Assembly: GCF_036186745.1 (NCBI RefSeq)
Contig: NZ_CP108086.1
Span: forward strand, 7,502,001 to 7,566,000
Source of the DNA: Microbispora hainanensis
GTDB lineage: Bacteria; Actinomycetota; Actinomycetes; Streptosporangiales; Streptosporangiaceae
DNA length: 64,000 nt
Reading direction: 5' to 3'
Shown: piece by piece, positions 11,703-52,561 of the stretch
Layout: each line of letters starts with the position of its first letter
How positions within the stretch are numbered: the stretch's first letter is position 1
Made by a program: the position numbers and the translations under genes
The notes under the pieces: generated by a model
What the model saw: the letters and a program-made list of their open reading frames with translations, nothing else
The model's database searches: none
What the model was told of the DNA's origin: nothing

Positions 11703-13208
11703 ATGGCATCCGGTAGATCGGGTCCGCCGGCCGTCGAGCGGACGTTCTTCGGCCATCCGCGGGGGCTGGCCACGCTGTTCGGCACCGAGATGTGGGAGCG
11801 GTTCAGCTACTACGGCATGCGCGCCATCCTCGTGCTGTTCCTGACCGCGCCCGTCACGCGCGGCGGCATGGGCCTGCCGGAGACGACCGCCGTCGGCATC
11901 TACGGCGTCTACATCGCCTCGGTCTACCTCCTCGCCATCGCGGGCGGCTGGCTCGGCGACCGGCTGCTCGGAGCCCGCAGGACCGTGCTGTGCGGCGCCC
12001 TGGTCATCATGGGCGGCCACGTCAGCATGGCGATGCCCATGGGCGGCGGGTTCGTCTGGCTCGGCCTCGTGCTGATCGCGCTGGGCAGCGGGCTGCTCAA
12101 GCCGAACATGTCGGCGCTGGTGGGCGAGCTCTACCGGCACGAGGACGACGCCCGGCGCGACTCCGGCTACACGATCTTCTACATGGGCATCAACCTGGGC
12201 GCCTTCATCGGCATCATGGTCGTGCCCTGGCTGCAGACGGGCGACCGCTGGCACCTCGCCTTCGGCGCGGCCGCCCTCGGCATGGCCTTCGGCCTGGCGC
12301 AGTACGTCCGGGGCCGGGCCACGCTCCGCGGCGCCGGCGAGGAGCCGGACCACCGCATGACACCGGACGAGGAGCGCCGCTTCAAGGTCGTGGCCAGCGT
12401 CGCGCTCGCCGCCGGCGCGGGCGCGCTGACCCTGTGGGCGCTCAGCGGCACGCTCACCGTGGACCGGTTCGCCGTCGTGCTCACGGTCGTCACGGCGGCC
12501 GTGCCGGTCGCGTACTTCGTCTTCCTGTTCTCCTCGCGCGAGGTCACCGCGGAGGAGCGGAAGGGCCTGTTCGCGTACGTGTGGCTGTTCCTGGCCGCCG
12601 CGATCTTCTGGCTCGTCTACGACCAGGCCGGCAGCGCCCTGCTGCTGTTCGCCAAGAACGACACCGACCTGGACGTGCTCGGCTTCACGATCCCGCCGGG
12701 CTGGGTGGGCAACATCAACTCGCTGGTGATCATCCTCGTCGCCCCCCTCTTCGCGGAGATGTTCCTCAAGGCGGGCACCCGGATCAGCACGCCGCTCAAG
12801 TTCGCGGTCGGCCTGGTGCTCGTCGGGGTGAGCTTCGTCGTCATGTCGGTCGCGTCCGGCATCGCCTCCGGCGGGGTGAAGGTCTCGGTCATGTGGCTGC
12901 TGTCGGTCTACCTCATCCAGACCGTCGGCGAGCTGTTCCTCAGCCCGGCCGGGCTGTCGGTCACCAACAAGCTCGCCCCCCGGGCGTTCGAGAACCAGCT
13001 CATGGGCCTGTGGTTCCTCTCCATGGCCCTCGGCGACTCCGTCGGCGGCCAGGCCTACCGGCTGACCAAGGTCGTGCCGATGCCGATGTACTACCTCACC
13101 CTCGCGCTCGCCGCGATCGCGGCGGGGCTCGTCATGCTGCTGTTCGTCCGCAGGCTCCGCATGCTGATGGCCGAGCACCACGTGCCGCCCGTGCCCACAC
13201 CGAGCTGA
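11703..13208 (+). CDS. Proton-dependent oligopeptide transporter (POT/PTR family)
   Basis: A 501-residue inner-membrane symporter for di/tripeptides. It shows the POT hallmarks: GTEMWERFSYYGMRAILVLFL near the N-terminus (ExxERFxYYG proton-coupling motif), the second signature GGWLGDRLLGARRTVL, and 12-14 hydrophobic segments. FYMGINLGAFIG and LSPAGLSVTNKLAPRAF are also typical. GGGGG precedes the ATG. Its last codons (P-T-P-S-stop) are the first unit of a tandem array. The next gene converges on it. Confidence 0.92.
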   Translation: MASGRSGPPAVERTFFGHPRGLATLFGTEMWERFSYYGMRAILVLFLTAPVTRGGMGLPETTAVGIYGVYIASVYLLAIAGGWLGDRLLGARRTVLCGALVIMGGHVSMAMPMGGGFVWLGLVLIALGSGLLKPNMSALVGELYRHEDDARRDSGYTIFYMGINLGAFIGIMVVPWLQTGDRWHLAFGAAALGMAFGLAQYVRGRATLRGAGEEPDHRMTPDEERRFKVVASVALAAGAGALTLWALSGTLTVDRFAVVLTVVTAAVPVAYFVFLFSSREVTAEERKGLFAYVWLFLAAAIFWLVYDQAGSALLLFAKNDTDLDVLGFTIPPGWVGNINSLVIILVAPLFAEMFLKAGTRISTPLKFAVGLVLVGVSFVVMSVASGIASGGVKVSVMWLLSVYLIQTVGELFLSPAGLSVTNKLAPRAFENQLMGLWFLSMALGDSVGGQAYRLTKVVPMPMYYLTLALAAIAAGLVMLLFVRRLRMLMAEHHVPPVPTPS

Positions 13209-13244
13209 CACCCACACCGAGCTGACACCCACGCCGAGCTGACG
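13194..13244 (+). repeat. Three 17-bp repeats spanning the POT stop codon
   Basis: Units at 13194, 13211 and 13228 read CCCACACCGAGCTGACA, the same again, then CCCACGCCGAGCTGACG. The first holds the final codons and stop of the transporter gene, so TGA recurs at 13206, 13223 and 13240, one in each reading phase. A fourth degenerate copy may follow. Confidence 0.9.
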
Positions 13245-13271
13245 CCCGCACCGCCCGTGCCGGGCTGAGGG

Positions 13272-14753
13272 TCACAGGGCCGGCATGAGCGGCTCGCGCG
13301 GGCGATAGCGGGCGGGGTCGCGGGCGATGCGGCGCACCGCCTCCTCCATCACCGCCGGCGGCTGGGTGAACGGCAGCCGCAGGTAGCGCTCCAGCGTCCC
13401 GTCCACGCCGAACCACGGGCCCGGAGCCAGCCGTACGCCACGGGCGGCGGCGGCCTCGGCGACCGAGCTCGCCACCGGCCCGTCGAGCCGCACCCACAGC
13501 GAGCCGCCACCGCGCGGCGTGGTGAACGCCCAGCCGGGCAGCTCCTCCCGCAGCACCGCGGCGAGCGCCGCACACGACGCGCCGAGCCCACGGCGGCGCT
13601 CGGCGCGCGCCTCCTCGATCCGCTCGAACAGGCACGCGACGACGAGCTGCTCGAAGACCGCGCCCGCGATGTCCACGGCGGCCCGCAGCACGGCCAGGCG
13701 GCGGACGGTCGCGGCGCTCGCCCGGATCCAGCCGACCCGCAGGCCGCCCCACCAGAGCTTGGAGGCCGAGCCCACGCTGATCACCCGGCCGTCGGTGTCG
13801 AACGCGGCCAGCGGCGCCGCACGCGCCGTCTCGTCCAGCACGATCTCGGCCCAGCTCTCGTCGGCGATCAGCGTCACGCCGTGCCGTCGTGCCGCCTCCA
13901 CCAGCTCGGCGCGGGCGGCGTCGGCCATCAGGTGGCCGGTCGGGTTCTGGAAGTCGGGGATGACGTAGGCCAGCCGGGCCGCCGTCTGCCGCATCGCACA
14001 GGTCACAAGATCGAGGTGCCAGCCGTCCTCCTGCACGCCGACCGGCACCAGGCGGGCTCCCCGCATCCGTGCCGCGTCGATCGCGTGCGGATAGGTCGGC
14101 GACTCGACCAGCACCGGGTCGCCCCTCTCGGCGAACGCCGCCATCAGCAGGTGGATGGCCTGCTGGGCCCCGGCCGTGACGAGGACCTGCTCGGGCCGGG
14201 TGGGCACGCCACGCTCGCCGTACCTGCGGGCGATCGCCTCGCGGAGCGGCGCGAGCCCGGCCGGGTGGTAGCCCATGCCCAGCGCGTACCGGTGGTAGGC
14301 CCGGCCCGCCTCCTCGATGGCCTCGCCGAGCAGGGCGCTCGCCGGGGGCGCGGCCGCGTGCAGCGGCAGCAGCCCGTCGTCGTCGGACGCCAGCCACGGG
14401 TTGTCGGTGCCGAGCGCGCCCGCGTCGGGCAGGGTCGCCCGGCTGCCGGATCCCTGCCTGCTCTCCAGATAGCCCTGCTCGCGCAGCCGATCGTACGCCG
14501 CGGTCACGGTGGTGCGGCTGACGCCGAGGGCCTCGGCCAGGTGCCGCTCGGCCGGCAGGCGCACCCCAACGGCGAGCCTCCCATCGAGGACCAGGCCGCG
14601 TACGGCGTCCGCGAGCGCCCGGTAGTAGGGCCGGGTCTCCTGCGCGTCTCCCGCGCCCTTCCCCGCCCTCGCTCCCGCGCCCCTTCCCGCGGCTTCTCCT
14701 GTGGTGCCGAGCACGAGCCGGGCGAGCTGCAGAGCGCTGAGGTACCGATCCAT
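13272..14753 (-). CDS. MocR-family (GntR/aminotransferase fusion) regulator, YczR-like
   Basis: A 493-residue protein. The N-terminal winged helix (HLAEALGVSRTTVTAAYDRLREQGYLESRQGSG, about residues 75-110) is fused to a class I aminotransferase-like domain with PLP-binding SVGSASKLWWGGLRVGWI. It is divergently paired with a YczE-like membrane protein, an arrangement known for YczR/YczE in Firmicutes and Actinobacteria; the usual role is PLP-responsive control of the neighbour. An Ala/Gly/Arg-rich linker (GAGARAGKGAGDAQET) precedes the DNA-binding domain. The ATG at 14753 is taken because the frame upstream enters the operator region. Confidence 0.88.
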   Translation of the reverse strand: MDRYLSALQLARLVLGTTGEAAGRGAGARAGKGAGDAQETRPYYRALADAVRGLVLDGRLAVGVRLPAERHLAEALGVSRTTVTAAYDRLREQGYLESRQGSGSRATLPDAGALGTDNPWLASDDDGLLPLHAAAPPASALLGEAIEEAGRAYHRYALGMGYHPAGLAPLREAIARRYGERGVPTRPEQVLVTAGAQQAIHLLMAAFAERGDPVLVESPTYPHAIDAARMRGARLVPVGVQEDGWHLDLVTCAMRQTAARLAYVIPDFQNPTGHLMADAARAELVEAARRHGVTLIADESWAEIVLDETARAAPLAAFDTDGRVISVGSASKLWWGGLRVGWIRASAATVRRLAVLRAAVDIAGAVFEQLVVACLFERIEEARAERRRGLGASCAALAAVLREELPGWAFTTPRGGGSLWVRLDGPVASSVAEAAAARGVRLAPGPWFGVDGTLERYLRLPFTQPPAVMEEAVRRIARDPARYRPREPLMPAL

Positions 14754-14756
14754 GCA

Positions 14757-14777
14757 GGCCAATTTCTCTGATTGGCC
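14757..14777. promoter_or_regulatory. Palindromic operator between mocR-like gene and yczE-like gene
   Basis: GGCCAAT (14757-14763) and ATTGGCC (14771-14777) form a perfect 7-bp inverted repeat with 7 bp between, in a 64-bp divergent region. Placement 3 bp from the MocR start suits autoregulation as well as control of the divergent gene. Confidence 0.6.
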
Positions 14778-14817
14778 CTTTCCTCGCAACCCCACCAGCC
14801 TGCACGATAGGCCGACT

Positions 14818-15456
14818 ATGACCGAACTGTCCCTCCCCCGCCCCCGTTCGCTCCCGCTGCGGCTCATCCGCCTCTATGCCGGCCTGGCGCTGTACGGCGC
14901 CGGGATCGCCCTGCTCGTCAGGTCCGGCCTGGGCCTCGACCCCTGGGAGGTCTTCCACCAGGGCCTGTCGGTGCGCACCGGGTGGTCGATCGGCCTGTGG
15001 ATCAACCTGGTGGGCGCGCTGGTGCTGCTGCTGTGGATCCCCCTCAAGCAGCGGCCCGGTCTCGGCACGATCAGCAACGTCCTGGTGGTCGGCACCAGCG
15101 CCGACGGGGTGATGGCGTTGGTGCCCGCGCCCGCGGCCTGGCCGGTCCAGTGGGCCTTCCTGCTGGGCGGCGTCGTCGCCATCGCCGCCGCCTCCGGGCT
15201 CTACATCCACGCGGGCTTCGGCCCGGGGCCGCGCGACGGCCTGATGACGGGCCTCAACCGGCTCGGCCTGTCGATCCGGCTGGCCCGCACGATCGTCGAG
15301 ATCAGCGTGCTCGCCATCGGCTGGCTGCTCGGCGGCACCGTCGGGGTCGGCACGGTGGTGTTCGCGGTCACGATCGGCCCGGTGACGCAGGTTTTCATGA
15401 AGCTGTGGGCCCCCGCCGGGGACACCGCCCGGCCACCTGGCACGAAGCCGTCCTGA
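14818..15456 (+). CDS. YczE/YitT-like integral membrane protein
   Basis: A 212-residue protein with about five hydrophobic helices. It carries the YczE-type motifs LYGAGIALLVRSGLGLDPWEVFHQGLS near the start and GFGPGPRDGLMTGL mid-protein. YczE homologues are uncharacterised or linked to secondary-metabolite (bacillaene) regulation in Bacillus, and recurrently pair with MocR regulators, as here. Start ATG at 14818 fits the family N-terminus (short polar stretch then helix). It is probably controlled by the divergent regulator. Transport substrate unknown. Confidence 0.82.
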   Translation: MTELSLPRPRSLPLRLIRLYAGLALYGAGIALLVRSGLGLDPWEVFHQGLSVRTGWSIGLWINLVGALVLLLWIPLKQRPGLGTISNVLVVGTSADGVMALVPAPAAWPVQWAFLLGGVVAIAAASGLYIHAGFGPGPRDGLMTGLNRLGLSIRLARTIVEISVLAIGWLLGGTVGVGTVVFAVTIGPVTQVFMKLWAPAGDTARPPGTKPS

Positions 15457-15530
15457 CGCGGCCAGCGCGGGCCCGTGACGGCCGCGGCTCGCGGATGAGC
15501 GGACGGCCCGCGCCCGGTAGCGTGACGGGC

Positions 15531-17303
15531 ATGCGGATCGAGGATTACGCCCTCGTTGGCGACATGCAGTCGGCCGCCCTCGTCGGCCGGGACGGCTCGA
15601 TCGACTGGCTGTGCCTGCCACGGTTCGACTCCCCCTCCTGTTTCACCCGGCTGCTCGGCGACGAGTCCAACGGCTTCTGGCGGCTGGCCGCCGCGGGACA
15701 GGAGCAGGCCACCCGCCGCGCGTACGTCGAGGACACGCTCATCCTGGAGACCGTCTGGGAGACGCCCACGGGCGCGGCCAAGGTGATCGACTTCATGCCG
15801 CCCCGGCACGCCAACCCCGATCTCGTACGGATCGTGGAGGGCCTGTCGGGCACCGTGGAGATGACGACCGAGATCCGCATCCGCTTCGACTACGGCCGCA
15901 TCGTCCCCTGGGTGCGCCGCAGCAACGGGCACCTGCACGCCATCGGCGGCCCCGACTCGGTCTGGATCCACTCCGGAGTCCCGCTGCACGGCGGCGACTA
16001 CCGGCACCAGGCGAGGTTCACGGTCGCCGCCGGCGAGCGGGTGCCGTTCGTGTTCACCTGGCATCCCTCCCACGAGCCGGAGCCGGAGCGGATCGACCCG
16101 ATGGAGCAGCTCGCCGAGACCAGGCTCATGTGGCAGGAGTGGGTCTCCCGCTGCGGTTACCAGGGCCCCTGGCGCGACGCCGTGGTCCGCTCGCTGATCA
16201 CGCTCAAGGCGCTGACCTACAGCCCGACCGGCGGCATCGTCGCCGCCCCGACCACGTCACTGCCGGAGCACCTGGGCGGGGTGCGCAACTGGGACTACCG
16301 CTTCTGCTGGCTGCGCGACGCCTCCATGACGCTCGACGCGCTGACCGGCGCCGGATACGTCGAGGAGGCCGCCGCCTGGCGTTCCTGGCTGCTGCGCGCC
16401 ATCGCCGGCCGTCCCGAGGACGTCCAGGTCCTGTACGGCGTGGCCGGCGAACGCCGCCTGCCGGAGATGACGCTCGACTGGCTGTCCGGCTACGAGAACT
16501 CCACGCCCGTGCGGATCGGCAACGGCGCGGCGACCCAGCTCCAGCTCGACATCTACGGGGAGGTCGTCGACGCCCTCTATCAGGCGCGCAAGCAGGGCAT
16601 GCCGCCGGACAACCACGCGTGGGCCCTGGTCACCAAGGTCATGGAGTTCTTCGAGCACAACTGGGACCAGCCCGACGAGGGACTGTGGGAGGTGCGCGGA
16701 CCCCGCCGCCACTTCGTCCACTCCAAGGTCATGGCCTGGGTCGCGGCCGACCGCATGGTCCGCGTCATCGAGGAGCTGGGCCGGCGCGGCGACGTGGAGC
16801 GCTGGCGCGCCATGCGCGACCGCATCCACGCCGAGGTCTGCGACAAGGGCTACGACCCCGAGCGCAACACCTTCACCCAGTCCTACGGCTCACGCGAGCT
16901 CGACGCCGCACTCCTGCAGATCCCCATCGTCGGCTTCCTGCCCCCCGACGACCCCCGCGTCATCGGCACCGTCGAGGCCATCGAACGCGAGCTCATGACC
17001 GACGGCTTCGTCCTGCGCTATCCCCTCGCCGAAGACAACCCCGTCGACGGCCTCCCCGGCGGCGAAGGCGCCTTCCTCGCCTGCAGCTTCTGGCTCGCCG
17101 AAGCCCGCGCCATGATCGGCCGCCACGACGACGCCGTCGAGCTCTTCCAGCGCCTCATCGCCCTCACCAACGACGTCGGCCTCCTCGCCGAGGAATACGA
17201 CCCCAAGACCGGCCGCCAGCTCGGCAACTTCCCCCAGGCCTTCAGCCACATCCATCTGATCCGTACGGCGCGGGCGCTGACCCGCTACACCGAGCGGCGG
17301 TAG
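15531..17303 (+). CDS. Glycoside hydrolase family 15 protein (trehalase / glucoamylase-like)
   Basis: A 590-residue (alpha/alpha)6-barrel enzyme with the N-terminal beta domain typical of the actinobacterial trehalase branch of GH15. Motifs are IEDYALVGDMQSAALVGRDGSIDWLCLP at the start, VRNWDYRFCWLRDASMTLDAL (about 252-271), a general acid Glu in DEGLWEVRG (near residue 387) and a general base Glu in GLLAEEYDP (near 560). It has no signal peptide, so cytoplasmic. The mycobacterial relative hydrolyses trehalose; glucan hydrolysis is an alternative. The start is the ATG before RIEDYALVG. Its last 19 bp overlap the convergent acetyltransferase gene. Confidence 0.9.
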   Translation: MRIEDYALVGDMQSAALVGRDGSIDWLCLPRFDSPSCFTRLLGDESNGFWRLAAAGQEQATRRAYVEDTLILETVWETPTGAAKVIDFMPPRHANPDLVRIVEGLSGTVEMTTEIRIRFDYGRIVPWVRRSNGHLHAIGGPDSVWIHSGVPLHGGDYRHQARFTVAAGERVPFVFTWHPSHEPEPERIDPMEQLAETRLMWQEWVSRCGYQGPWRDAVVRSLITLKALTYSPTGGIVAAPTTSLPEHLGGVRNWDYRFCWLRDASMTLDALTGAGYVEEAAAWRSWLLRAIAGRPEDVQVLYGVAGERRLPEMTLDWLSGYENSTPVRIGNGAATQLQLDIYGEVVDALYQARKQGMPPDNHAWALVTKVMEFFEHNWDQPDEGLWEVRGPRRHFVHSKVMAWVAADRMVRVIEELGRRGDVERWRAMRDRIHAEVCDKGYDPERNTFTQSYGSRELDAALLQIPIVGFLPPDDPRVIGTVEAIERELMTDGFVLRYPLAEDNPVDGLPGGEGAFLACSFWLAEARAMIGRHDDAVELFQRLIALTNDVGLLAEEYDPKTGRQLGNFPQAFSHIHLIRTARALTRYTERR

Positions 17304-17698
17304 GCGAGGCTCCGGGCGCACTCCCGGAACCCGAGCGACCGATACAGCCGCACGGGCACCGGATAGGCGTCGTCACCACGCGGGCTCACCACCGCCTGCC
17401 GCGCGCCCGCCCGCCGCGCCGCGTCCAGCGCGGCCAGGCAGGCGGCCCGTGCGAGGCCGCGCCGGCGGTGGCCCGGCGCGGTGCCGGCCGGCTCGATGCG
17501 GGCGGCCCGGTTGGCCTCGTCCAGCCAGACCAGGCAGAACGCCGCGGCGCTCCCGTCCGGCGCCTCGGCGATCCAGTCCAGGTCCGGCCGATAGGGCCAG
17601 GCCCGCCGGACCGCGTGGTAGCTCTCCTCGGTCACCCGCGACGGGTGGAACGCCGCCCGGTGCGCGGCGGCGCGTCGCGGGACGTCGGCGTCGCCCAC
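17285..17698 (-). CDS. GNAT-family N-acetyltransferase
   Basis: At least 137 residues with the acetyl-CoA pyrophosphate loop as APGHRRRGLARAACLAAL and the C-terminal beta-bulge region RLYRSLGFRECARSLAYRR. The substrate is unknown. The GTG at 17698 is the best unambiguous start. However, the frame continues upstream with a plausible first strand (GYRLRAVGDADVP), so the true start may overlap the end of the preceding same-strand gene. It overlaps the GH15 gene by 19 bp at its 3' end. Confidence 0.75.
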   Translation of the reverse strand: MGDADVPRRAAAHRAAFHPSRVTEESYHAVRRAWPYRPDLDWIAEAPDGSAAAFCLVWLDEANRAARIEPAGTAPGHRRRGLARAACLAALDAARRAGARQAVVSPRGDDAYPVPVRLYRSLGFRECARSLAYRRSV

Positions 17699-17723
17699 CG
17701 CGCGCAGGCGATATCCGGCGCGG

Positions 17724-20546: not shown

Positions 20547-20600
20547 GCCGGCGAACGAGCAGCCCGTCGGTGGGCGGCCGGCATGACCGGTCGTCTCCCC

Positions 20601-20692
20601 GCCGTCATCTCCAGGCCGTCATCCCCCAGGCCGCCGTTTTCCGGCTGTCGTCTCCGGGCCGTCATCCCCCGGCCGCCGTCTCCAGGCCGTCG
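20601..20692. repeat. Degenerate 14-15 bp tandem repeats
   Basis: Roughly seven units of CCGTCATCCCCCAGG type (variants CCGTCATCTCCAGG, CTGTCGTCTCCGGG, CCGCCGTCTCCAGG) fill the gap between the convergent sulfotransferase and ABC exporter genes. Confidence 0.75.
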
Positions 20693-30305: not shown

Positions 30306-30360
30306 CCGCTGTCCCTCCGAACCATGGTGGAGTCGGGCGCGTACTTCCCCGCCGTTCCTG

Positions 30361-30549
30361 CCAGGCGCGCACCGTTCCTGTCAGGCGCACTTTCCTGCCA
30401 GGCGCGCGCCGTGGCGCTGCTTCGATCAAGCGCGCGCCGTGGCGCTGCTTCGATCAGACGCGCACCGTGGCACTGCTTTTCAGGCGCGCACCGTGGCACT
30501 GCTTTCAGGCGCGCACCGTGGCACTGCTTTCAGGCGCGCACCGTGGCAC
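30361..30549. repeat. 25-28 bp tandem repeats built on the permease gene 3' end
   Basis: At least five units of TCAGGCGCGCACCGTGGCACTGCTT type (starts 30505, 30480, 30454, 30426, 30398), with two degenerate ones beyond, follow the gene end at 30530-30549. In coding orientation each unit carries the permease's terminal A-T-V-R-A-stop codons. The array fills most of the permease-kinase intergenic region. Confidence 0.9.
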
Positions 30550-31267
30550 GACGGTAGGCGAATATCGCCAGCGCCACCAAGGCCACCCCCCAGGCGAGGA
30601 TGCCGGCCGCGTCGGCCGCGTGCGGGGCCTCGCCCGCCGCGATCTGCCATCCGATGCTCGCGTAGTCGTACGACGGGGTCACGTGGGCGATGCTCTTCAT
30701 GACCGCGGGCATCAGGCTCTCGGGGAACCAGAGCCCGCCGAGCAGGGCGAGGGCGAACATGCCGATCATCGCGACGGGCTGCGCGGTGTCGGGGGGCAGC
30801 AGGGATCCGATCGTCAGGCCCAGCGCCGCGAACGGGATCGTGCCGATCCACATCGCCAGGATCAGCCCGACCCACTGCCCCGGCGGCAGCGAGACGTCCT
30901 GGGTGAGCACCGCGGCCAGGCCGACCAGCAGCAGCGCCGGCAGCACGAGCAGCATCGAGGAGATCAGCTTCGTCAGGATGATCGCCCGGCCCGGCAGCGG
31001 AGTGATCTGGAGCTGCCGCAGCCAGCCGCTGTGCCGCTCCTGCGACCAGGGCACGGCCGTCGACATGATGGCCGAGGCCAGCGCGCCGTACGCGGCCATC
31101 GAGATCATCAGCAGGACGCTGCCGCGCAGTCCGGTCGACTGATCGGTCTCCGCTCCCCAGAGGTTGGAATAGAGGAGGTAGAACCCGACGGGGAAGGCGA
31201 CCACGAAGATGATGTAGCGCTTGTTGCGCATCATCCGCAGCATCTCGACCTTGATGTAGTGCCGCAT
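30530..31267 (-). CDS. ABC-2 type transporter permease
   Basis: A 245-residue integral membrane protein with six hydrophobic helices (RYIIFVVAFPVGFYLLYS, LLMISMAAYGALASAIM, IILTKLISSMLLVLPALLLVGLAAV, LILAMWIGTIPFAALGLTIGSLL, PVAMIGMFALALLGGLWFPESLMP, GILAWGVALVALAIFAYR). PWSQERHSGWLRQLQITPLPGRAI is the characteristic cytoplasmic coupling segment. It is the partner of the ATPase two bases upstream. Likely an exporter linked to the downstream DesK/DesR pair; substrate unknown. Confidence 0.9.
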   Translation of the reverse strand: MRHYIKVEMLRMMRNKRYIIFVVAFPVGFYLLYSNLWGAETDQSTGLRGSVLLMISMAAYGALASAIMSTAVPWSQERHSGWLRQLQITPLPGRAIILTKLISSMLLVLPALLLVGLAAVLTQDVSLPPGQWVGLILAMWIGTIPFAALGLTIGSLLPPDTAQPVAMIGMFALALLGGLWFPESLMPAVMKSIAHVTPSYDYASIGWQIAAGEAPHAADAAGILAWGVALVALAIFAYRRATVRA

Positions 31268-32899: not shown

Positions 32900-32947
32900 T
32901 CGGAGGCGGCAGGGTTCAGAGGCGGCAGGGTTCAGAGGCGGCAGGCG
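32900..32947. repeat. 16-bp repeats spanning the hisG stop codon
   Basis: Units at 32932, 32916 and 32900 (TCAGAGGCGGCAGG, then TCAGAGGCGGCAGGGT, then TCGGAGGCGGCAGGGT) repeat the gene end. Coding orientation reads CTGCCGCCTCTGA in the first two; the third has CGA in place of TGA. Confidence 0.85.
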
Positions 32948-33777
32948 AAGATCGCGGTGACCAGGATCGCCTTGGCTCCGATGTCCCAGAGCTGGTCCAT
33001 CACCTGCTGGTGGCCCTTGCGCGGGACCATCGCCCGTACGGCCACCCAGCCCTCGCGGTGGAGCGGGGAGACGGTCGGCCCCTCCATGCCCGGGGTGATC
33101 GCGATGGCCTCGTCGATGCGCTCGGCCCGGATGTCGTAGTCGATCATCACGAAGTCGCGGGCCACGATCACGCCCTGCAGGCGCCGGATGAGCTGCTGGA
33201 AGCCGTTGGACTCGGGGGCCCCGGCCCGCTTGATCAAGATGGCCTCGGAGTGCGCGATCGGCTCGCCGAACACCTCGAGGCCGACGTTGCGCAGCGTCGT
33301 GCCGGTCTCCACCACGTCGGCGACCGCGTCGGCGACGCCGAGCCTGATCGCCGTCTCGACCGCGCCGTCGAGCTTGATGACCCGGGCGTCCACGCCCTGG
33401 TCGGCGAGGTGTTTGCCGAGCAGTCCGGCGTACGAGGTGGCGATGCGCAGACCGGACAGGTCGGCCACGCCGGAGTAGGCGCCCGGCGTGGCGGCGAAGC
33501 GGAACGTCGACCCGCCGAACCCGAGCGGCATGACCTCCTCGGCGGGGGCGCCGGAGTCGAACAGCATGTCGCGCCCGGTGATGCCGGCGTCGAGGGTGCC
33601 CTCGCCGACGTAGACGGCGATGTCGCGCGGACGGAGGAAGAACAGCTCGCAGGAGTTCTCGGAGTCGACGACCACGAGCTCCTTGCTGTCCCTGCGCTGG
33701 CGGTAGCCGGCCTCCTTCAGCATGGTCTGGGCGGCCTCGGAGAGCGCGCCCTTGTTCGGTACGGCGATGCGCAGCAT
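32932..33777 (-). CDS. hisG: ATP phosphoribosyltransferase
   Basis: A 281-residue long-form HisG, condensing ATP with PRPP in the first step of histidine synthesis. Features: MLRIAVPNKGALSEAAQTML at the start, the PRPP loop in DAVADVVETGTTLRNVGLEV (about 148-167), and the C-terminal ACT-like regulatory domain (EGPTVSPLHREGWVAVRAMVPRKGHQQVMDQLWDIGAKAILVTAIFACRL) for histidine feedback inhibition. It sits 62 bp after hisE, the enzyme for the next step, on the same strand. Confidence 0.97.
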   Translation of the reverse strand: MLRIAVPNKGALSEAAQTMLKEAGYRQRRDSKELVVVDSENSCELFFLRPRDIAVYVGEGTLDAGITGRDMLFDSGAPAEEVMPLGFGGSTFRFAATPGAYSGVADLSGLRIATSYAGLLGKHLADQGVDARVIKLDGAVETAIRLGVADAVADVVETGTTLRNVGLEVFGEPIAHSEAILIKRAGAPESNGFQQLIRRLQGVIVARDFVMIDYDIRAERIDEAIAITPGMEGPTVSPLHREGWVAVRAMVPRKGHQQVMDQLWDIGAKAILVTAIFACRL

Positions 33778-40147: not shown

Positions 40148-40225
40148 CATAGTTTGTGTCAACACCGCCCCCATACGCCACCGGGCCGCCCATAGGGACG
40201 GCCCGGTGGAGGTGCGGTGTTCAGT

Positions 40226-40361
40226 TCAGCATCGTGATGAGGTCAGCATCGTGATGAGGTCAGCATCGTGATGAGGTCAGCATCGTGATGAGGTCAGCAT
40301 CGTGATGAGGTCAGCATCGTGATGAGGTCAGCATCGTGATGAGGTCAGCATCGTGATGAGG
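40226..40361. repeat. Eight perfect 17-bp tandem repeats after the DEAD-box helicase stop
   Basis: Eight consecutive identical units of TCAGCATCGTGATGAGG (starts 40226, 40243, ... 40345). Each contains the small inverted repeat CATC-GT-GATG. The array ends two bases before the helicase stop codon, whose context (GTTCAGC) resembles the unit start. There are no spacers, so it is not a CRISPR. Confidence 0.97.
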
Positions 40362-40363: not shown

Positions 40364-42040
40364 TCAGCGGCCGGTGAAGCGGCCACCGCGGCCCCGGCGT
40401 CCGCCACGGCCGGCGTCGCCGCCATAGCCCCCGCGTCCGCCCTGGCCGCCGCCGTAACCGCCGTAGCCTCCGCGTCCGCCCTGACCGCTCTGGCCGCCCT
40501 GGCCGCCGTAACCCCCTTGGCCGCCCTGACCGCCGTACGCGCCCTGACCGCTGTAGCCGGACTGGGCGTGCCCGGACTGGGCGTGCCCGGACTGGCCGCC
40601 GTGTCCACCCGTACGGCCACGGTGGTGGCCGCCGCGCGACTCGCTGCGGCCGTCGGCCCAGCCATCGCCGGTGCGGGGACCGCGAGACCGCTCGCCCTGG
40701 TCGGACCGCCTGCGCCGCCCGTCCCCGTCACCCGGGCGGTCGGCGCCGCGAAAACGGTCGCCGCCGTGCCGCCGCCGGCCGGGCCCCCGGTCGTCCCGCG
40801 CGGGCCGCAGCGGCCTGCGCACGTCGGGCTCCCACACCGGAACGGCCTCGCCGCTCGGCCGCCGGGCCCCGGCGATCTCGGCCAGAATCGGGTCACCCGG
40901 CGTCACACGGTGACGGGACGGGGTCACCCCCGCCTTGCGGGTCATCGACTCGGCGGCGCGGCGCTCGCTCGGCAGGACCAGCGTCAGCACCACGCCGCGC
41001 TCGCCCGCGCGGGCCGTACGGCCGCCGCGGTGCAGGTAGCTCTTGTGATCGGCCGGCGGGTCGACGTGCAGCACGAGGCTCACGTCGTCCACGTGGATGC
41101 CGCGGGCGGCGACGTCGGTGCACACGAGCACCCCGATCGTGCCCTCGCGGAACCCGTCGAGGATGCGGGTGCGCTGGTTCTGCCGCTTGCCGCCGTGCAG
41201 GCCGCCCGCGCGGACGCCCGACCGGGCGAGCTGCTTCACGACGCGGTCCACGCCGTGCTGGGTGCGGACGAACAGGATCGTACGGCCGTCCCGGTTGGCG
41301 ATCTCCGCCGTCACGTCCACCTTGTCGTCACGGTGCACCTGGAGCAGGTGGTGCTCCATCGTCTCCACCGAGGAGGTGGCCGGGTCGAGGGAGTGGACCA
41401 CGGGGTCGGTCAGGAAGCGCGTGACCAGCGTGTCCACGTCGCCGTCGAGCGTCGCGGAGAACAGCAGGCGCTGCCCGTCGGCGGGCGTGCGCGCGAGCAG
41501 CGCGCTGACCACGGGCAGGAACCCGAGGTCGCACATGTGGTCGGCCTCGTCGAGCACGGTGACCTGGACGTCGTCCAGCGTGCACTCGCCCTGCTCGATG
41601 AGGTCGGTGAGGCGGCCGGGCGTGGCGACGACGACGTCGACCCCACGGCGCAGATCGTCGATCTGGCGGCCCATGGACATGCCGCCGACGACCGTGCGGG
41701 TGCGCAGCGACAGCCCGCGGCCGAGCGGTTCGAGGGTGTCGGCCACCTGCAGGGCCAGTTCGCGGGTGGGCACCAGGACGAGGGCCCGGGGGTGGCCGGG
41801 GCGGGCCTTCTCCCCCGCGATCCTGGCCAGGGTCGGCAGGCCGAAGGCGAGCGTCTTGCCGGAGCCGGTCTGGCCCCGGCCGAGGACGTCGTAGCCGGCG
41901 AGGATGTCGGGAATGGCCGCCCGCTGGATCGGGAACGGCTCGGTGATGCCCTGCCGGGCCAGCCCCGCCACGAGCGGCTTGGGCAGACCCAGCAGTGCGA
42001 ACTCGGCGCGGGTCTCGGTGCCCTCACCGAGGTCAAGCAT
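40364..42040 (-). CDS. DEAD-box RNA helicase with C-terminal RGG/Gly-rich tail
   Basis: A 558-residue RhlE/DeaD-type helicase. The order of motifs is Q-motif (LGLPKPLVAGLARQGITEPFPIQRAAIP), I GRGQTGSGKT, Ia PTRELALQ, Ib TPGR, II DEAD, III SAT, then RecA2 with TDVAARGIHVDDV and HRGGRTARAGERG. After about residue 430 there is a long Arg/Gly/Ser/Gln/Tyr-rich tail (GQGGYGGQGGQSGQGG type), expected to bind RNA non-specifically and to be disordered. Likely roles are mRNA unwinding and ribosome assembly, especially in the cold. The ATG at 42040 was chosen as the family start; the upstream extension is unconserved. Confidence 0.93.
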   Translation of the reverse strand: MLDLGEGTETRAEFALLGLPKPLVAGLARQGITEPFPIQRAAIPDILAGYDVLGRGQTGSGKTLAFGLPTLARIAGEKARPGHPRALVLVPTRELALQVADTLEPLGRGLSLRTRTVVGGMSMGRQIDDLRRGVDVVVATPGRLTDLIEQGECTLDDVQVTVLDEADHMCDLGFLPVVSALLARTPADGQRLLFSATLDGDVDTLVTRFLTDPVVHSLDPATSSVETMEHHLLQVHRDDKVDVTAEIANRDGRTILFVRTQHGVDRVVKQLARSGVRAGGLHGGKRQNQRTRILDGFREGTIGVLVCTDVAARGIHVDDVSLVLHVDPPADHKSYLHRGGRTARAGERGVVLTLVLPSERRAAESMTRKAGVTPSRHRVTPGDPILAEIAGARRPSGEAVPVWEPDVRRPLRPARDDRGPGRRRHGGDRFRGADRPGDGDGRRRRSDQGERSRGPRTGDGWADGRSESRGGHHRGRTGGHGGQSGHAQSGHAQSGYSGQGAYGGQGGQGGYGGQGGQSGQGGRGGYGGYGGGQGGRGGYGGDAGRGGRRGRGGRFTGR

Positions 42041-43650: not shown

Positions 43651-43653
43651 GGC

Positions 43654-45725: not shown

Positions 45726-45731
45726 TTGTAT

Positions 45732-46061
45732 TTACTCCTTCGAGAGCGAGACGTACACGTCGTCGCCTTCGATCTTGACTCGGTAGACGTTGACGGGCCT
45801 GGTCGCCGGCGGCCCGGTGGGCTTGCCGGTGCGCAGGTCGAAGCAGGAGCCGTGCAGCCAGCACTCCAGCGTGTGGTCGTAGACCTCGCCCTCGCTGAGG
45901 CGGACCTCGGCGTGGGAGCACACGTCGTGCAGGGCGAAGACCTCGCCGCCGGTGCGCACCAGCGCGACCGGCGTCTCCCCGACCTCCAGGCCGAGGACGC
46001 CGCCGTCCGGGATGTCTCCGACCTGGCAGACCTTCTCCCAGTGGGCGGTGTCGGCGCTCAT
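45732..46061 (-). CDS. Rieske-type [2Fe-2S] ferredoxin of the suf operon
   Basis: A 109-residue non-heme Rieske protein: first ligand pair CSHAEV (Cys, His), second pair CWLHGSCFDL (Cys, His), preceded by WEKVCQVGDIPDGGVLGLEV. It is a standard member of actinobacterial suf operons between sufD and sufC, probably an electron donor or cluster carrier in assembly. Its ATG overlaps the sufD stop by 4 bp. Confidence 0.95.
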   Translation of the reverse strand: MSADTAHWEKVCQVGDIPDGGVLGLEVGETPVALVRTGGEVFALHDVCSHAEVRLSEGEVYDHTLECWLHGSCFDLRTGKPTGPPATRPVNVYRVKIEGDDVYVSLSKE

Positions 46062-47182: not shown

Positions 47183-48594
47183 CAGCCGACCGCTCCTTCC
47201 ATCTGCAGCTCGATCAGGCGGTTGAGCTCAAGGGCGTACTCCATGGGCAGCTCACGGGCGATCGGCTCGACGAAGCCGCGCACGATCATCGCCATCGCCT
47301 CGTCCTCGCCGAGACCGCGGCTCATCAGGTAGAAGAGCTGGTCCTCCGACACCTTGGAGACCGTGGCCTCGTGGCCCATCGACACGTCGTCCTCGCGGAC
47401 GTCCACGTACGGGTAGGTGTCGGACCGGCTGATCTGGTCGACCAGCAGCGCGTCGCACTTGACGGTCGAGGCCGAGCCGGCCGCGCCCTCCTCGATCTGC
47501 ACCAGGCCCCGGTAGGAGGTGCGGCCACCGCCGCGCGCCACCGACTTGGAGATGATCGTCGAGGACGTCTTGGGCGCGAGGTGCACCATCTTGGCGCCCG
47601 CGTCCTGGTGCTGGCCCTCGCCGGCGAAGGCGACCGACAGCGTCTCGCCCTTGGCGTGCTCGCCCATCAGGTAGACGGCCGGGTACTTCATCGTGACCTT
47701 GGAGCCGATGTTGCCGTCGATCCACTCCATGGTCGCGCCCTCGTACGCCACGGCGCGCTTGGTGACCAGGTTGTAGACGTTGTTCGACCAGTTCTGGATG
47801 GTCGTGTAGCGACAGCGGGCGCCCTTCTTCACGACGATCTCGACGACCGCCGAGTGGAGCGAGTCGGACGAGTAGATCGGCGCGGTGCAACCCTCGACGT
47901 AGTGGACGTAGGAGTTCTCGTCCACGACGATCAGGGTCCGCTCGAACTGGCCCATGTTCTCGGTGTTGATCCGGAAGTAGGCCTGCAGCGGGATCTCCAC
48001 GCTCACGTTCGGCGGCACGTAGATGAACGAGCCGCCCGACCACACGGCGGTGTTGAGCGCGGCGAACTTGTTGTCGCCCACCGGGATCACCGTGCCGAAG
48101 TACTCCTTGAAGAGCTCCTCGTGCTCGCGCAGGCCGGTGTCGGTGTCGACGAAGATGACGCCCTTCTCCTCGAGGTCCTCACGGATCTTGTGATAGACGA
48201 CCTCGGACTCGTACTGGGCGGCGACACCGGCGATGAGGCGCTGCTTCTCCGCCTCCGGGATGCCGAGCTTGTCGTAGGTGTTCTTGATGTCCGGGGGCAG
48301 CTCGTCCCAGGACGCGGCCTGCTTCTCCGTCGAGCGGACGAAGTACTTGATGTTGTCGAAGTCGATGCCCGTGAGGTCGGAGCCCCAGGTCGGCAGCGGC
48401 TTCTTCTCGAACAGCCGAAGGCCCTTGAGGCGCAGGTCGAGCATCCACTCCGGCTCGTTCTTGAGCGCGGAGATGTTGCGGACGACCTCTTCGGACAGCC
48501 CACGGCGGGCCGTGGCCCCCGCCACGTCCGTGTCGGCCCAGCCGAACTTGTAATTCCCGAGGCCTTCCAGCTCCGGGCGGTCGGTGACAGTCAC
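47182..48594 (-). CDS. sufB: SufB, Fe-S scaffold subunit (intein-free)
   Basis: A 470-residue scaffold core. Typical stretches: [35 protein letters not shown]-like [34 protein letters not shown] and [35 protein letters not shown]. It is uninterrupted, unlike the intein-containing mycobacterial SufB. The GTG at 48594 was chosen because AAGGAG lies 8 nt upstream and the codon overlaps the sufR stop by 4 bp, so translation is coupled to the regulator. Confidence 0.96.
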
Positions 48595-49433
48595 CTTCCG
48601 GACTCCTTGCTCGTCGATGTGCTCGATAGATGTGCGGCCGGCAGCTCGGCGGCCGATAAACCGGCGGTCGGCGAATCGGCGGCCGCCGGATCGGAACGCG
48701 CGTGCCGTGCGGCCAGCGCGTGTGAACTCACGTGGGTGGTGCAGACCCCGTCGCCGTTGGCGATCGTGGCCAGGCGCTGCACCGGCGTGCCCAGCAGCCG
48801 GGCGAACGCCTCGGTCTCCGCCTCGCACAGCTGCGGGAACTGCGCCGCGACGTGCGCCACCGGGCAGTGGTGCTGGCACAGTTGCTCGCCGCCCTTGCCC
48901 GTCGCGGACGCCGACGCCGCGTAGCCCTCGGCCGACAGCGCCTCGGCCAGCACGCGGACCCGCTGCTCGGCCGGGACCTCGCGCATCAGCGCCTCAAGCC
49001 GGCCGACCAGCCCGGACACCTGCGCCCGCGCGAACTCCGACACCGCCTCGCCGCCGAGCCGCTCGGCCAGGAAGCGCAGCGCGCTGCCGGCGAGGTCGTC
49101 GTAGGCGTGGACGAAGGCGCTGCGGCCCGCGTCGGTGATCGCGAACATCTTCGCCGGCCTGCCGCGCCCCCGCTGGCCGCGCGGGCGTGCCGTACGAGGC
49201 TCTATCATGCCCTCGGCCAGCAGCGCGTCGAGATGGCGGCGCACCGCGGCCGGAGTAAGCCCGAGCCGCTCGCCGAGCGCCGCCGCCGTCACCGGGCCGT
49301 GCTCCAGGATGAGCCGCGCCACCCGGGCACGGGTGCCGCGCTCGGCGGTGATGTCCATGTGCACGGGGGACGCCGGAACAGGCCGCGTCACCACGGCCTT
49401 CTCGGCGTTCTGCTTCCCCTGCACGTTTTTCAC
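48591..49433 (-). CDS. sufR: SufR, Fe-S-dependent repressor of the suf operon
   Basis: A 280-residue DeoR/ArsR-type winged-helix regulator: [45 protein letters not shown], then a C-terminal Cys cluster [18 protein letters not shown] that should bind a [4Fe-4S] cluster, and a Ser/Ala-rich tail. Mycobacterial SufR represses the suf operon when cluster-loaded. I chose the GTG at 49433 (VKNVQGKQN), which matches Streptomyces-type N-termini as I recall them and lies within the SufR palindrome; no Shine-Dalgarno is present, so the message may be leaderless. An ATG at 49358 is the alternative. Confidence 0.92.
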
Positions 49434-49444
49434 AACATCAGTGT
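49430..49444 (-). promoter_or_regulatory. SufR operator overlapping the sufR start codon
   Basis: On the minus strand the sequence is ACACT-GATGT-TGTGA, an exact match to the ACACT-N5-TGTGA palindrome reported for mycobacterial SufR. The TGTGA half contains the proposed GTG start, so bound SufR would block transcription start or early elongation. Confidence 0.8.
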
Positions 49445-49505
49445 GCCGTAATTCCTTCCCCGGCGACAAACCCAAGGAGAGGTCGCCGGGGATGCAATTT
49501 CTCAC

Positions 49506-49524
49506 GCAGGTAAGCCTTACCTAA
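49506..49524. promoter_or_regulatory. IdeR/DmdR-type iron box upstream of sufR
   Basis: The minus strand reads TTAGGTAAGGCTTACCTGC, 19 bp close to the actinobacterial iron box TTAGGTTAGSCTAACCTAA (about four mismatches). It lies 73 bp upstream of sufR in the 256-bp gap to the divergent ABC ATPase gene, so it could control either side. Confidence 0.75.
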
Positions 49525-49689
49525 CCTGCGACGACGTGAGTTTTCCGCATCCTTTACCCGCCCGGGCTGGAATGGCGGCACTCGCCGACGAGAGCGCGCT
49601 CCCCGCTCCCTAGACTCGATGCCGTCGACGACCGACCAGGGCCGCCCGCATCCGGCCGGCGCGGCGGTCGGTCCTGCGAGGGGAGGCCG

Positions 49690-50652
49690 GTGGGAGTGCC
49701 GGGGGTTGACAGCACGTTCGAGAGCACGGCCGGCCGCACGGGCGGCGCCGCGCCGGCGGTGGAGATCGACGGGCTGGTCAAGCGCTACGGAAGCACCACG
49801 GCCGTCGACGGGCTGACCCTCACCTGCGCGCGGGGCGCCGTCACGGCGATCCTCGGGCCGAACGGCGCGGGCAAGACCTCGACGATCGAGATCTGCGAGG
49901 GCTTCCGGCGGCCGGACGGCGGGACCGTGCGCGTGCTCGGCCTGGACCCGGCCGACGCCGCGCTGAAGCCGCGCCTGGGGATCATGCCGCAGAGCGGAGG
50001 GGTGCCTCCCGCCGCCCGCGCGGGCGAGTGGCTGCGCGTGGTCTCCCGGTTCTACGCCCACCCGCTCGACCCCGGCTCCCTGCTCGATCTGCTCGGCCTG
50101 GCCGACCACGCGCGTACGCCGTACCGGCGGCTGTCGGGCGGCCAGCAGCAGCGCCTGTCGCTTGCCGCCGCGGTGATCGGGCGGCCGGAGCTGGTCTTCC
50201 TCGACGAACCGACCGCCGGTCTCGACCCGCAGGCCCGGCACGCCTGCTGGGACCTGGTCGCCGCGCTGCGCGCCTCCGGGGTGTCGGTGGTGCTGACGAC
50301 CCACCAGATGGACGAGGCCGAGAAACTCTCCGACCACATCGTGGTCATCGACCACGGCCGGGTGGTGGCCGCGGGCACCCCCGAGTCGCTGACCGGCGCC
50401 GAGCGGCAGCTCAGGTTCCGCGCCCGCCCCGGGCTCGACCTGGAGGAGCTGCTGGCCGCGCTGCCGCCGGGCAGCGCCGCCAAGGAGTCGCCCTCGGGGC
50501 ACTACATCATCGAGGGGCAGGTCGGCCCGCAGCTGCTCGCCACCGTCACGGCCTGGTGCGCCACCGAGGGCGTCACCACAGAGGACCTGCGCATCGAGCG
50601 GCGCACTCTGGAGGACGTCTTCCTCGAACTGACCGGCAGGGAGCTGCGGTGA
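49690..50652 (+). CDS. ABC transporter ATP-binding protein (Rv1458c-like)
   Basis: A 320-residue ATPase: Walker A ILGPNGAGKTSTIEICEGF, signature LSGGQQQRLSLAAAVIG, Walker B LVFLDEPTAGLD, H-loop LTTHQMDEAEKL. It is divergent from sufR and followed by a permease (GTGA overlap), then, further on, ctaA. The same order occurs in Mycobacterium (Rv1456c-Rv1458c beside sufR). A role in cytochrome/heme-linked or redox physiology is suggested by context only; the substrate is unknown. The GTG at 49690 has GGGGAGG before it. Confidence 0.9.
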   Translation: MGVPGVDSTFESTAGRTGGAAPAVEIDGLVKRYGSTTAVDGLTLTCARGAVTAILGPNGAGKTSTIEICEGFRRPDGGTVRVLGLDPADAALKPRLGIMPQSGGVPPAARAGEWLRVVSRFYAHPLDPGSLLDLLGLADHARTPYRRLSGGQQQRLSLAAAVIGRPELVFLDEPTAGLDPQARHACWDLVAALRASGVSVVLTTHQMDEAEKLSDHIVVIDHGRVVAAGTPESLTGAERQLRFRARPGLDLEELLAALPPGSAAKESPSGHYIIEGQVGPQLLATVTAWCATEGVTTEDLRIERRTLEDVFLELTGRELR

Positions 50653-51425
50653 GCACGATCGCCACACTGGACCTCACGCCGCGGCCCGGGGCCGCGCCGC
50701 TGCACCGGATGGTCCTCGCCCAGGCGGGCGCGGAGATCCGGGCCATGCTGCGCAACGGCGAGCAGCTCCTGCTCACGATGATCATCCCGATCCTGCTGCT
50801 CGTCGGGTTCTCCACGGCCCCGCTGGTGGACGTCGGCGACGGCGCCCGCGTCGACTTCGTCGCCCCCGGCATCCTCGCGCTCGCGGTCATGTCGACCGCG
50901 TTCACCGGGCAGGCCATCGCCACCGGCTTCGAACGCAGGTACGGCGTGCTCAAGCGCCTCGGCGCGACCCCGCTGTCCAGGGCCGGGCTGCTGCTGGCCA
51001 AGACCGTCGCGGTCGTCGCCGTCGAGGTGCTGCAGGTCGTGGTGATCGCCGCGGTTGCGCTGGCGCTCGGCTGGTCCCCGCACGGCGACCCGCTGTGGGC
51101 CGTGCCGCTCCTCCTGCTGGGCACGGCGGCCTTCAGCGGCCTCGGCCTGCTCATGGCCGGCACGCTGCGGGCGGAGGCCACCCTGGCCGGGGCCAACCTC
51201 GTCTACCTGGTGCTGCTCGGGCTCGGCGGCGTGCTGTTCCCGCTGGACCGGTTCCCTGCGGGGGTGCAGCACGTGCTGGGGCTGCTGCCGATCAGCGCGC
51301 TCACCTCCGGCCTGCGCACCGTCCTGAGCGCCGGCGGCGGCTTCCCCGGCGGCGCGCTCCTCGTGCTGCTGTGCTGGACGGTGGCCGCGCTCGCCCTCGC
51401 CGCCCGCACCTTCCGCTGGGAATGA
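50649..51425 (+). CDS. ABC-2 type transporter permease (Rv1457c-like)
   Basis: A 258-residue six-helix permease, GTG start overlapping the ATPase stop. Helices include LLLTMIIPILLLVGFSTAPL, PGILALAVMSTAFTGQAIATGF, LLLAKTVAVVAVEVLQVVVIAAVALALGW and LAGANLVYLVLLGLGGVLFPL. GFERRYGVLKRLGATPLSRAGLLLAK is the coupling loop. Its last codons (R-W-E-stop) are repeated beyond the stop. Confidence 0.9.
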   Translation: MSTIATLDLTPRPGAAPLHRMVLAQAGAEIRAMLRNGEQLLLTMIIPILLLVGFSTAPLVDVGDGARVDFVAPGILALAVMSTAFTGQAIATGFERRYGVLKRLGATPLSRAGLLLAKTVAVVAVEVLQVVVIAAVALALGWSPHGDPLWAVPLLLLGTAAFSGLGLLMAGTLRAEATLAGANLVYLVLLGLGGVLFPLDRFPAGVQHVLGLLPISALTSGLRTVLSAGGGFPGGALLVLLCWTVAALALAARTFRWE

Positions 51426-51500
51426 CACGGGCACCGGCAATGACACGGGCCGCTGGGAGAGTGACACCGGACTGCTTGAGTGACACCGGTCGCGTGGCGT
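51416..51500 (+). repeat. Degenerate 18-21 bp repeats spanning the permease stop codon
   Basis: Four units begin AATGACACGGGCACCGGC, AATGACACGGGCCGC, AGTGACACCGGACTGCTTG and AGTGACACCGGTCGC. CGCTGGGA, which precedes the true stop, also recurs before the third. TGA falls at 51423, 51441, 51462 and 51481. Confidence 0.75.
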
Positions 51501-51593
51501 GACGACGCCGGGGCCCTCACCTGCGACCTGACAGCCTGCGCATATGATTGCGGGCGTTTGTTGTGATCAATGCCTTTATGTGGGGTTGCCGGC

Positions 51594-52505
51594 ATGACCG
51601 CTGAGTCCCTTCCGGGAGCCGAGCCGTATCGCATGAGGCCGTCGCCGATCAGGGCGCTGCGGGCCGCCTCGGACGCGATACCGCCGTCGGGACTGGTGCT
51701 GCTGGGCATCCTGTCGGTCCAGGTGGGCGCCGGGCTGGCCAAGAACCTCTTCGCGGAGCTGTCCCCTTCGGCCGTGGTCTTCCTGCGCATCGCCACCAGC
51801 GCCGTCATGCTGCTGGCCGTCGCCCGGCCCAAGGTGCGCGGGCTGTCGCGGCGCGACCTCGCCGTCGGCGTCGCGTTCGGGCTCAGCCTCGGCCTGATGA
51901 ACCTGTCGTTCTACGAGGCACTCGCCCGGATGCCGATCGGGATCGCGGTGGCCATCGAGTTCATCGGCCCGCTCACCCTGGCCGTGGTGTCCTCCCGCCG
52001 CCGGCTCGATCTGCTGTGGGTGGGACTGGCCGCCGCGGGCGTGATCCTGCTCGCCCCCTGGGGGGACGCGGGCACCGCGAGCTGGGTGGGGATCGGCTTC
52101 GCCGCGCTGGCGGGCACGTGCTGGGCCGCCTACATCGTGCTCTCCGCGGCCACCGGCGCCCGCTTCCCCGGCGCGAGCGGGCTGTCGTTCGCCATGATCG
52201 TGTCCACGATCGTCGTCGCGCCCATCGGGATCGGCTCAGGCGGGAGCGAGCTGCTGCGGCCCGAGCTTCTGCTGCTCGGCGCGGGGGTGGGCCTGCTCTC
52301 CTCGTTCATCCCCTACTCGCTGGAGCTGGAGGCCCTGCGCCGGATGCCCAAGCGGGTCTTCGGCATCCTGATGAGCCTGGAGCCCGCCGCAGCCGCGCTC
52401 GTCGGCCTGCTCGTCCTGCACGAGGTGCTCCAGGTGCGCGAGTGGGCGGCCATCGGCTGCGTGGTCATCGCCTCCATCGGCGCCACCCGCGCCGGGGACG
52501 GCTGA
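51594..52505 (+). CDS. EamA/DMT-family transporter (RhtA-like)
   Basis: About 303 residues with ten hydrophobic helices in two EamA repeats (LSPSAVVFLRIATSAVMLLAVARPKVRGL; FLRI and GLMNLSFYEALARMPIGIAVAIEFIGPL are typical of RhtA/YdcZ-like threonine/homoserine or metabolite exporters). In-frame starts at 51570, 51594 and 51633 are all possible; none has a strong Shine-Dalgarno. It converges on a GntR regulator across a repeat array. Substrate unknown. Confidence 0.85.
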   Translation: MTAESLPGAEPYRMRPSPIRALRAASDAIPPSGLVLLGILSVQVGAGLAKNLFAELSPSAVVFLRIATSAVMLLAVARPKVRGLSRRDLAVGVAFGLSLGLMNLSFYEALARMPIGIAVAIEFIGPLTLAVVSSRRRLDLLWVGLAAAGVILLAPWGDAGTASWVGIGFAALAGTCWAAYIVLSAATGARFPGASGLSFAMIVSTIVVAPIGIGSGGSELLRPELLLLGAGVGLLSSFIPYSLELEALRRMPKRVFGILMSLEPAAAALVGLLVLHEVLQVREWAAIGCVVIASIGATRAGDG

Positions 52506-52510
52506 GCCGC

Positions 52511-52561
52511 ACCGTTCAGGCCGTCGTACCGTTCAGGCCGTCGTACCGTTCAGGCCGGGGG
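52511..52561. repeat. Three 17-bp repeats spanning the GntR stop codon
   Basis: ACCGTTCAGGCCGTCGT at 52511 and 52528, then ACCGTTCAGGCCGGGGG at 52545, which contains the gene's stop (TCA at 52550-52552). In coding orientation GGCCTGAACGGT recurs every 17 bp, placing TGA in all three frames. Confidence 0.9.

Follow-up and report, generated by a model that had tools for sequence, protein, structure and literature searches.

The window, that is, the whole 64-kb stretch of DNA analysed here, belongs to a genome assembled as one contig of 8.80 Mb, whose nearest named relatives by hisG are Microbispora (95–98% for the closest), which places it in Microbispora or close by. Short tandem arrays lie at the 3′ ends of six of its genes, where the first-pass annotation had placed them, and all six were found again by TRF, in the letters and with the gene calls. 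They are listed below with a hairpin and two places used for comparison; unless otherwise indicated, the evidence is TRF, the letters, gene calls and Pfam.

9348–9494, no strand assigned: adjoining arrays for comparison, 16 bp × 3.6 and 26 bp × 3.2 (intergenic)
13194–13253, + strand: POT transporter array, 17 bp × 3.5
20590–20692, no strand assigned: degenerate array for comparison, 14 bp × 7.3, spanning neither stop (convergent intergenic)
30399–30549, − strand: ABC-2 permease array, 25 bp × 5.8
32903–32945, − strand: hisG array, 16 bp × 2.7, 100% identical
40180–40209, − strand: GC-rich inverted repeat, terminator-like, downstream of the helicase array (letters)
40226–40361, − strand: DEAD-box helicase array, 17 bp × 8.0, 100% identical
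51413–51500, + strand: ABC permease array, degenerate, 18–20 bp (TRF in part, the rest by eye)
52511–52557, − strand: GntR/FCD array, 17 bp × 2.8, 100% identical

The POT transporter gene (11703–13208) ends with a TGA at 13206–13208, inside its array, which begins in the last codons of the gene and sits in a convergent intergenic region. The arrays also cover the stops of an ABC-2 permease gene (30530–31267, − strand; stop 30530–30532), of hisG (32932–33777, − strand; stop 32932–32934), of the ABC-2 permease gene at 50649–51425 (+ strand; stop 51423–51425) and of a GntR/FCD regulator gene (52550–53257, − strand; stop 52550–52552), whose convergent neighbour is an EamA gene with its end at 52505. 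The helicase gene (40364–42040, − strand) has its stop at 40364–40366, outside its array and separated from it by 2 bp; the earlier statement that the reiterated unit includes the stop codon thus holds for five of the six arrays and fails for the helicase. The inverted repeat at 40180–40209 may act as a terminator, and no run of U is seen in it. Beyond the array at 30399–30549 there is a further, more degenerate one at 30352–30412. The array at 51413 is reported by TRF as 51413–51458 (18 bp × 2.5, 71%), and degenerate TGAC-bearing copies were followed by eye to about 51500.

Other arrays of the window lie away from stops. The array at 20590–20692 is 43 and 12 bp from its flanking stops, and those at 9348–9494 are at least 187 bp from the stop bordering their intergenic region. 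In this last region two different arrays adjoin, the first with a 16-bp unit and the second with a 13/26-bp unit. The C-terminal coding part of the helicase gene (40449–40595) has in-frame repeats of its own, with units of 15, 27 and 45 bp by TRF, which vary among congeners when compared by eye. At a score of ≥50, TRF reports 13 arrays in the window that are mainly non-genic; 5 of them span a stop and the other 8 span none, so the six loci singled out earlier are the striking ones.

Each of the six arrays has a consensus unit unlike the others, which rules out a dispersed element; among these loci no unit is shared, unlike repeats of the MIRU, REP or TAACTGA type. A search of the whole genome with the hisG array region (141 bp) returned a single match and no further copies. 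The arrays consist of head-to-tail copies of a unit of about 10–100 bp at one locus, as VNTRs or minisatellites do. In the POT and GntR arrays every reading frame contains stop triplets, as the first-pass annotation had noted, because any array of at least three copies whose unit is not divisible by three shows the same.

The survey beyond the window covered six 400-kb blocks of its genome (2.4 Mb, 27% of the chromosome), in which 2090 genes were called by a purpose-made caller trained on this genome, with starts as given by the caller. Arrays were found by TRF, and those with a period below 10 and rows overlapping a better-scoring row were dropped. Arrays less than half non-genic were left out of the tests of stop spanning, and arrays over starts were left out of the neutral (tolerance) model. 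A second set contained exact duplications with units of 12–60 bp, without low-complexity runs and without those less than 30% non-genic. Relatives were represented by 80 family loci, one neighbourhood each, and all genomes compared belong to the Streptosporangiaceae. Among non-spanning TRF arrays bordering a stop in the genome of the window, 129 of 266 units were divisible by three, more than a third, which suggests that the gene calls contain some missed genes or wrong starts.

In the 2.4 Mb, 412 arrays were at least half non-genic. Of these, 85 overlapped a stop, against 45.6 (sd 5.8) under random placement, and 5 overlapped a start, against 56.6; convergent gene pairs enclosed 124 (56.9 expected) and divergent pairs 64 (117.3 expected), all ratios being overstated by about 5% by a null that retained a mean of 393.9 of the 412 placements. 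None of the 200 shuffles reached 85. The enrichment at stops that the first-pass annotation had set as its test is therefore present, and the contrary outcome, no enrichment over random positions, did not occur. Intergenic DNA carried 2.39 arrays per kb between convergent genes, 1.13 between tandem genes and 0.62 between divergent ones. An array over the stop was also found in 31 of the 1476 genes called in the 80 family loci, so the pattern is not confined to the genome of the window. The densities of 17.2 arrays per 100 kb here, 8.7 in Microbispora loci and 8.4 in other family loci allow no real difference to be read, because most relatives are draft assemblies, which possibly collapse repeats, and only one neighbourhood was taken from each.

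Unit length depends on position. Of 525 arrays lying entirely within called genes, 491 have a unit length that is a multiple of three, not all of which can be attributed to selection, because the period-three composition of coding DNA also favours such units; for exact in-gene duplications the figure is 158 of 159. At stops, the avoidance of multiples of three remarked on earlier is suggested by exact stop-spanning duplications (2 of 28; p 0.001 against one third) and not by TRF arrays in convergent regions, where multiples of three make up 14 of 46 spanning and 23 of 78 non-spanning arrays. Set against convergent non-spanning exact duplications, of which 14 of 54 are multiples of three, the 2 of 28 gives p 0.075. 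All spanning TRF arrays include 23 multiples of three among 82 (p 0.19 against one third), or 28 among 111 when family loci are added (p 0.04).

The same gene ends were looked for in thirteen congeners; readable ends were compared and copies counted by eye. Copy number varies between close relatives at the same locus, at the level of species. At the helicase end, the eight exact copies of the window correspond to one 17-bp unit between stop and hairpin in the nearest relative found (L203); among the seven relatives compared (L203–L209), L204 has a similar single stretch, L208 has a different 14-bp duplication, and the hairpin at 40180–40209 is conserved in all seven. The hisG end, with 16 bp × 2.7 here, is single-copy in G012, G006, G013 and G008, among others; it bears another array in G003 (14 bp × 5) and a 17-bp unit in a Nonomuraea (L162), and TRF flags L162, L170 and L172 among the 80 family loci. 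The ABC-2 permease end at 30530 has about 3–4 copies in seven congeners (L256–L262), shorter copies in L255, two copies in L264 and one in L263, L265 and L266. The POT end carries an array of 22-bp units in L223, one of different units in L224, and none in L227. At the ABC permease end (51425), L239 has at least five copies, L243 a 17-bp unit present twice, and L245 and L246 one copy each; at the GntR end, L239 has four and L240 and L241 have one each. Arrays recur at the same ends in different species for hisG (3 of 80 orthologs), the helicase (4 of 59) and the ABC-2 permease (3 of 32), and the other 12 ortholog groups have 0 or 1 array each. These gene ends show fast, recurrent turnover at the level of species, part of the recurrence perhaps being due to inheritance.

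Two further observations were made in these alignments. Between the convergent EamA and GntR ends, G008 (L244/L252) has about 1 kb more than the other congeners, possibly an inserted gene. At the ABC-2 permease end of M. rosea (L148, identical there in its letters to L256), TAA is both the working stop and the triplet in the two copies that follow it, and the last copy has TGA. The stop of this gene is TGA in eight other congeners compared, and TAA serves as stop in 98 of the 2090 genes called in the genome of the window. The letters give the impression of a new stop codon carried along the array by its turnover.

We propose that the arrays are locus-specific, VNTR-like minisatellites that pile up at and after stops, where duplication is tolerated, a reading to which we give a probability of about three in four. 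Whatever 12–30-bp sequence occupies a site would undergo ordinary tandem duplication, and the resulting array would then be lengthened, shortened or replaced by unequal copying. Copying errors, either slippage or short-homology recombination, would be the source of the arrays. The length of partial copies was considered as a sign of short-homology slippage and is unusable, since decayed outer copies give an identical signal. Purifying selection would be the filter. A duplication inside a gene would shift the frame unless its unit is a multiple of three, and one over a start would disturb the ribosome site and the promoter; both would be removed. A unit that starts in the last codons and includes the stop would be harmless to the protein, because the first copy is still read and the remainder would stay untranslated. 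That the arrays are tandem duplications, as first supposed, is supported by the present data. The multiples of three inside genes, the density gradient among intergenic regions, the scarcity of arrays over starts, the like copy number at stops and elsewhere and the variation between congeners all agree with the proposal. The pattern is real, and it is probably a product of ordinary repeat turnover passed through natural selection and not a new stop-codon device.

Under the tolerance model, each array was collapsed to one unit and dropped evenly over the tolerated positions of its own intergenic region. Exact duplications, presumably the youngest arrays, span a stop in 23 of 166 cases against 23.6 expected (27.0 or 33.6 with 30 or 60 bp left out ahead of starts). 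Between convergent genes, which leave no start to protect, 15 of 59 do so against 15.1 expected, and in the family loci 5 of 30 against 4.9. With two stricter gene sets, 20 of 173 span a stop where 17.9 are expected, and 18 of 184 where 14.0 are. Thus, exact duplications have no clear excess at stops, stricter gene sets included.

The TRF arrays, among which are degenerate and presumably older ones, disagree with the exact duplications. Among all of them, 82 of 344 span a stop against 54.9, 63.3 and 75.3 expected with 0, 30 and 60 bp excluded before starts; between convergent genes the figures are 46 of 124, with 34.7 expected (z 2.6). In the family loci the count is 28 of 104 against 18.6, 21.1 and 23.7 for the same exclusions, and in family convergent regions 11 of 31 against 10.1. 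With the stricter gene sets the spanning arrays number 71 of 359 (45.3 expected) and 59 of 373 (32.5 expected), and in convergent regions 35 of 131 (27.7 expected) and 32 of 142 (20.0 expected); these sets raise the excess in part because real short genes that are dropped lengthen the apparent intergenic DNA and so lower the expected number. Each array was also moved within its own region and then found again by TRF, with periods above 60 left out (327 arrays kept of 344, about 308–310 found again). In this matched re-placement, 78 of 327 arrays (0.239) span a stop against 0.173, 0.200 and 0.254 expected, and 45 of 119 (0.378) in convergent regions against 0.30–0.32 (sd about 0.033), the expected share being slightly lowered by the original copy of non-spanning arrays, which was left unmutated. 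The edges of arrays that face a start suggest a short protected zone before starts, and therefore the smaller exclusions may be fairer. Most likely, both sets reflect duplications that arise irrespective of stops, with at most a modest extra retention where a stop is spanned.

A different origin was raised as one possibility by the first-pass annotation, namely polymerase slippage tied to termination. Gene 3′ ends would then be mutational hotspots, with the duplications provoked by transcriptional or translational termination or by polymerases meeting head-on between convergent genes. The density of arrays between convergent genes agrees with it, yet the same gradient is also predicted by purifying selection on promoters. 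The recurrence of arrays at the hisG, helicase and ABC-2 permease ends is in its favour as well, although it was counted at ends chosen for bearing arrays, the other 12 groups do not repeat it, and part of it may be inheritance. The two sets of arrays speak in opposite directions: TRF arrays have their stop excess, including that in convergent regions, whereas exact duplications are as frequent at stops as expected, overall and between convergent genes. The tie to termination is accordingly not upheld, and we regard a hotspot as unlikely.

The stops carried by the arrays may have some value of their own. In these high-GC bacteria, reiteration out of frame could be weakly favoured, as it places stops in all frames behind a leaky TGA. 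The scarcity of multiples of three among exact stop-spanning duplications points in this direction, and so do the TRF arrays at stops, 1.2–1.8 times as many as tolerance predicts with no or small start exclusions. The avoidance of multiples of three in these exact duplications goes beyond the prediction of tolerance alone. The 2 of 28 of the exact set is the sole result leaning to out-of-frame stops, and the TRF set disagrees with it. An effect of this kind is suggested by the data and we hold it to be improbable.

The stronger form of the idea, put forward in the first-pass annotation, is that stops in several frames act as back-up stops, catching readthrough and frameshifted ribosomes, so that arrays with out-of-frame stops are kept. 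The rarity of multiples of three in the exact set and the stop excess of the TRF arrays can be read in this way, and the stop triplet is slightly better kept in the extra copies (355 of 396 identical, 0.896) than other positions are (2368 of 2771, 0.855). This comparison used 78 arrays from the genome of the window and the family loci, without arrays having more than 3% indels and copies below 60% identity, and 7.7% of slid-triple draws do as well (fraction 0.077). Against the idea, exact duplications have no clear excess at stops, and convergent TRF arrays contain multiples of three in like proportion at stops and elsewhere. The median copy number is not higher at stops, with 2.7 against 2.8 elsewhere (78 and 253 arrays, p 0.97), a result that rules out selection for more copies there. 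The non-spanning arrays of tandem intergenic regions contain 12.9 sense stop triplets per kb, fewer than the 19.2 per kb found region-wide, and at the POT end of two relatives (L223 and L224) CGA replaces TGA in some extra copies. Back-up stops have gained little or no support from these tests and are quite unlikely to explain the arrays.

It is very unlikely that the arrays act as 3′-UTR or terminator RNA structures, a role also suggested at first: the helicase array does lie between the stop and a conserved terminator-like hairpin, but this hairpin is a separate element, conserved in relatives without the eight-copy array, and, judged by single-nucleotide shuffles, folding is weaker in the arrays than in 3′ intergenic controls that lack arrays (mean z −0.13 and −0.67, p 0.02; 120 of each drawn at random, arrays of 35–150 bp).

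With tolerated duplication as the preferred reading, the arrays may be classed as VNTR-like minisatellites, whose variation is known at the level of species. In the available part of the report on Burkholderia pseudomallei (PMC1853098), VNTRs are mostly intergenic and in-gene units are mostly multiples of three; its Table 1, with 609 arrays, places 85 within 40 bp 3′ of coding sequences and 19 within 40 bp 5′. The comparable count here, overlaps included, is 186 on the 3′ side and 54 on the 5′ side of 412, a similar 3′ bias. The units differ, being mostly 6–9 bp there and mostly 12–30 bp here; that table does not separate arrays containing stops, and the variation described here is between species (PMC1853098). 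Arrays of the archaeal Borgs are described, in the part of the report available, as recent and independent, with almost all units unique; their in-gene units are divisible by three, as are 14–38% of the intergenic ones (PMC9879509). Borg arrays are A-rich, perfect and extrachromosomal, whereas those described here lie on a GC-rich chromosome and many are degenerate (PMC9879509).

The TAACTGA direct repeats of Beggiatoaceae are likewise tandem units with stops in all frames (PMC4679880). According to the excerpt of that report, they consist of one conserved heptamer, mostly oriented to the downstream start, whereas here each locus has its own unit (PMC4679880). The mycobacterial MIRU-VNTR and ETR loci, such as rnc-fpg1, are likewise variable actinobacterial arrays between a stop and the next gene (PMC2734929). 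The rnc-fpg1 array is present in one species complex and absent in the other mycobacteria compared in the available section of that work (PMC2734929); unlike the arrays here, it begins 40 bp after the stop and extends to the start codon, and MIRUs have units of 40–100 bp scattered over 41 places (PMC2734929). In the literature searched by titles and abstract openings, no description of the stop-spanning pattern in Streptosporangiaceae was found among the matches listed.

Tandem duplications point to the places at which a compact genome can accept insertions, and what appeared as a striking rule becomes a measurable filter, for which the last codons and the stop are the first insertion-tolerant place behind every gene. 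The 3′ ends of genes turn over fast enough to accompany a change of stop codon, as at the ABC-2 permease end of L148/L256 with its TAA. Arrays that span stops could serve as strain-typing markers, and the weak out-of-frame bias, if upheld in more genomes, would bear on the value of back-up stops.
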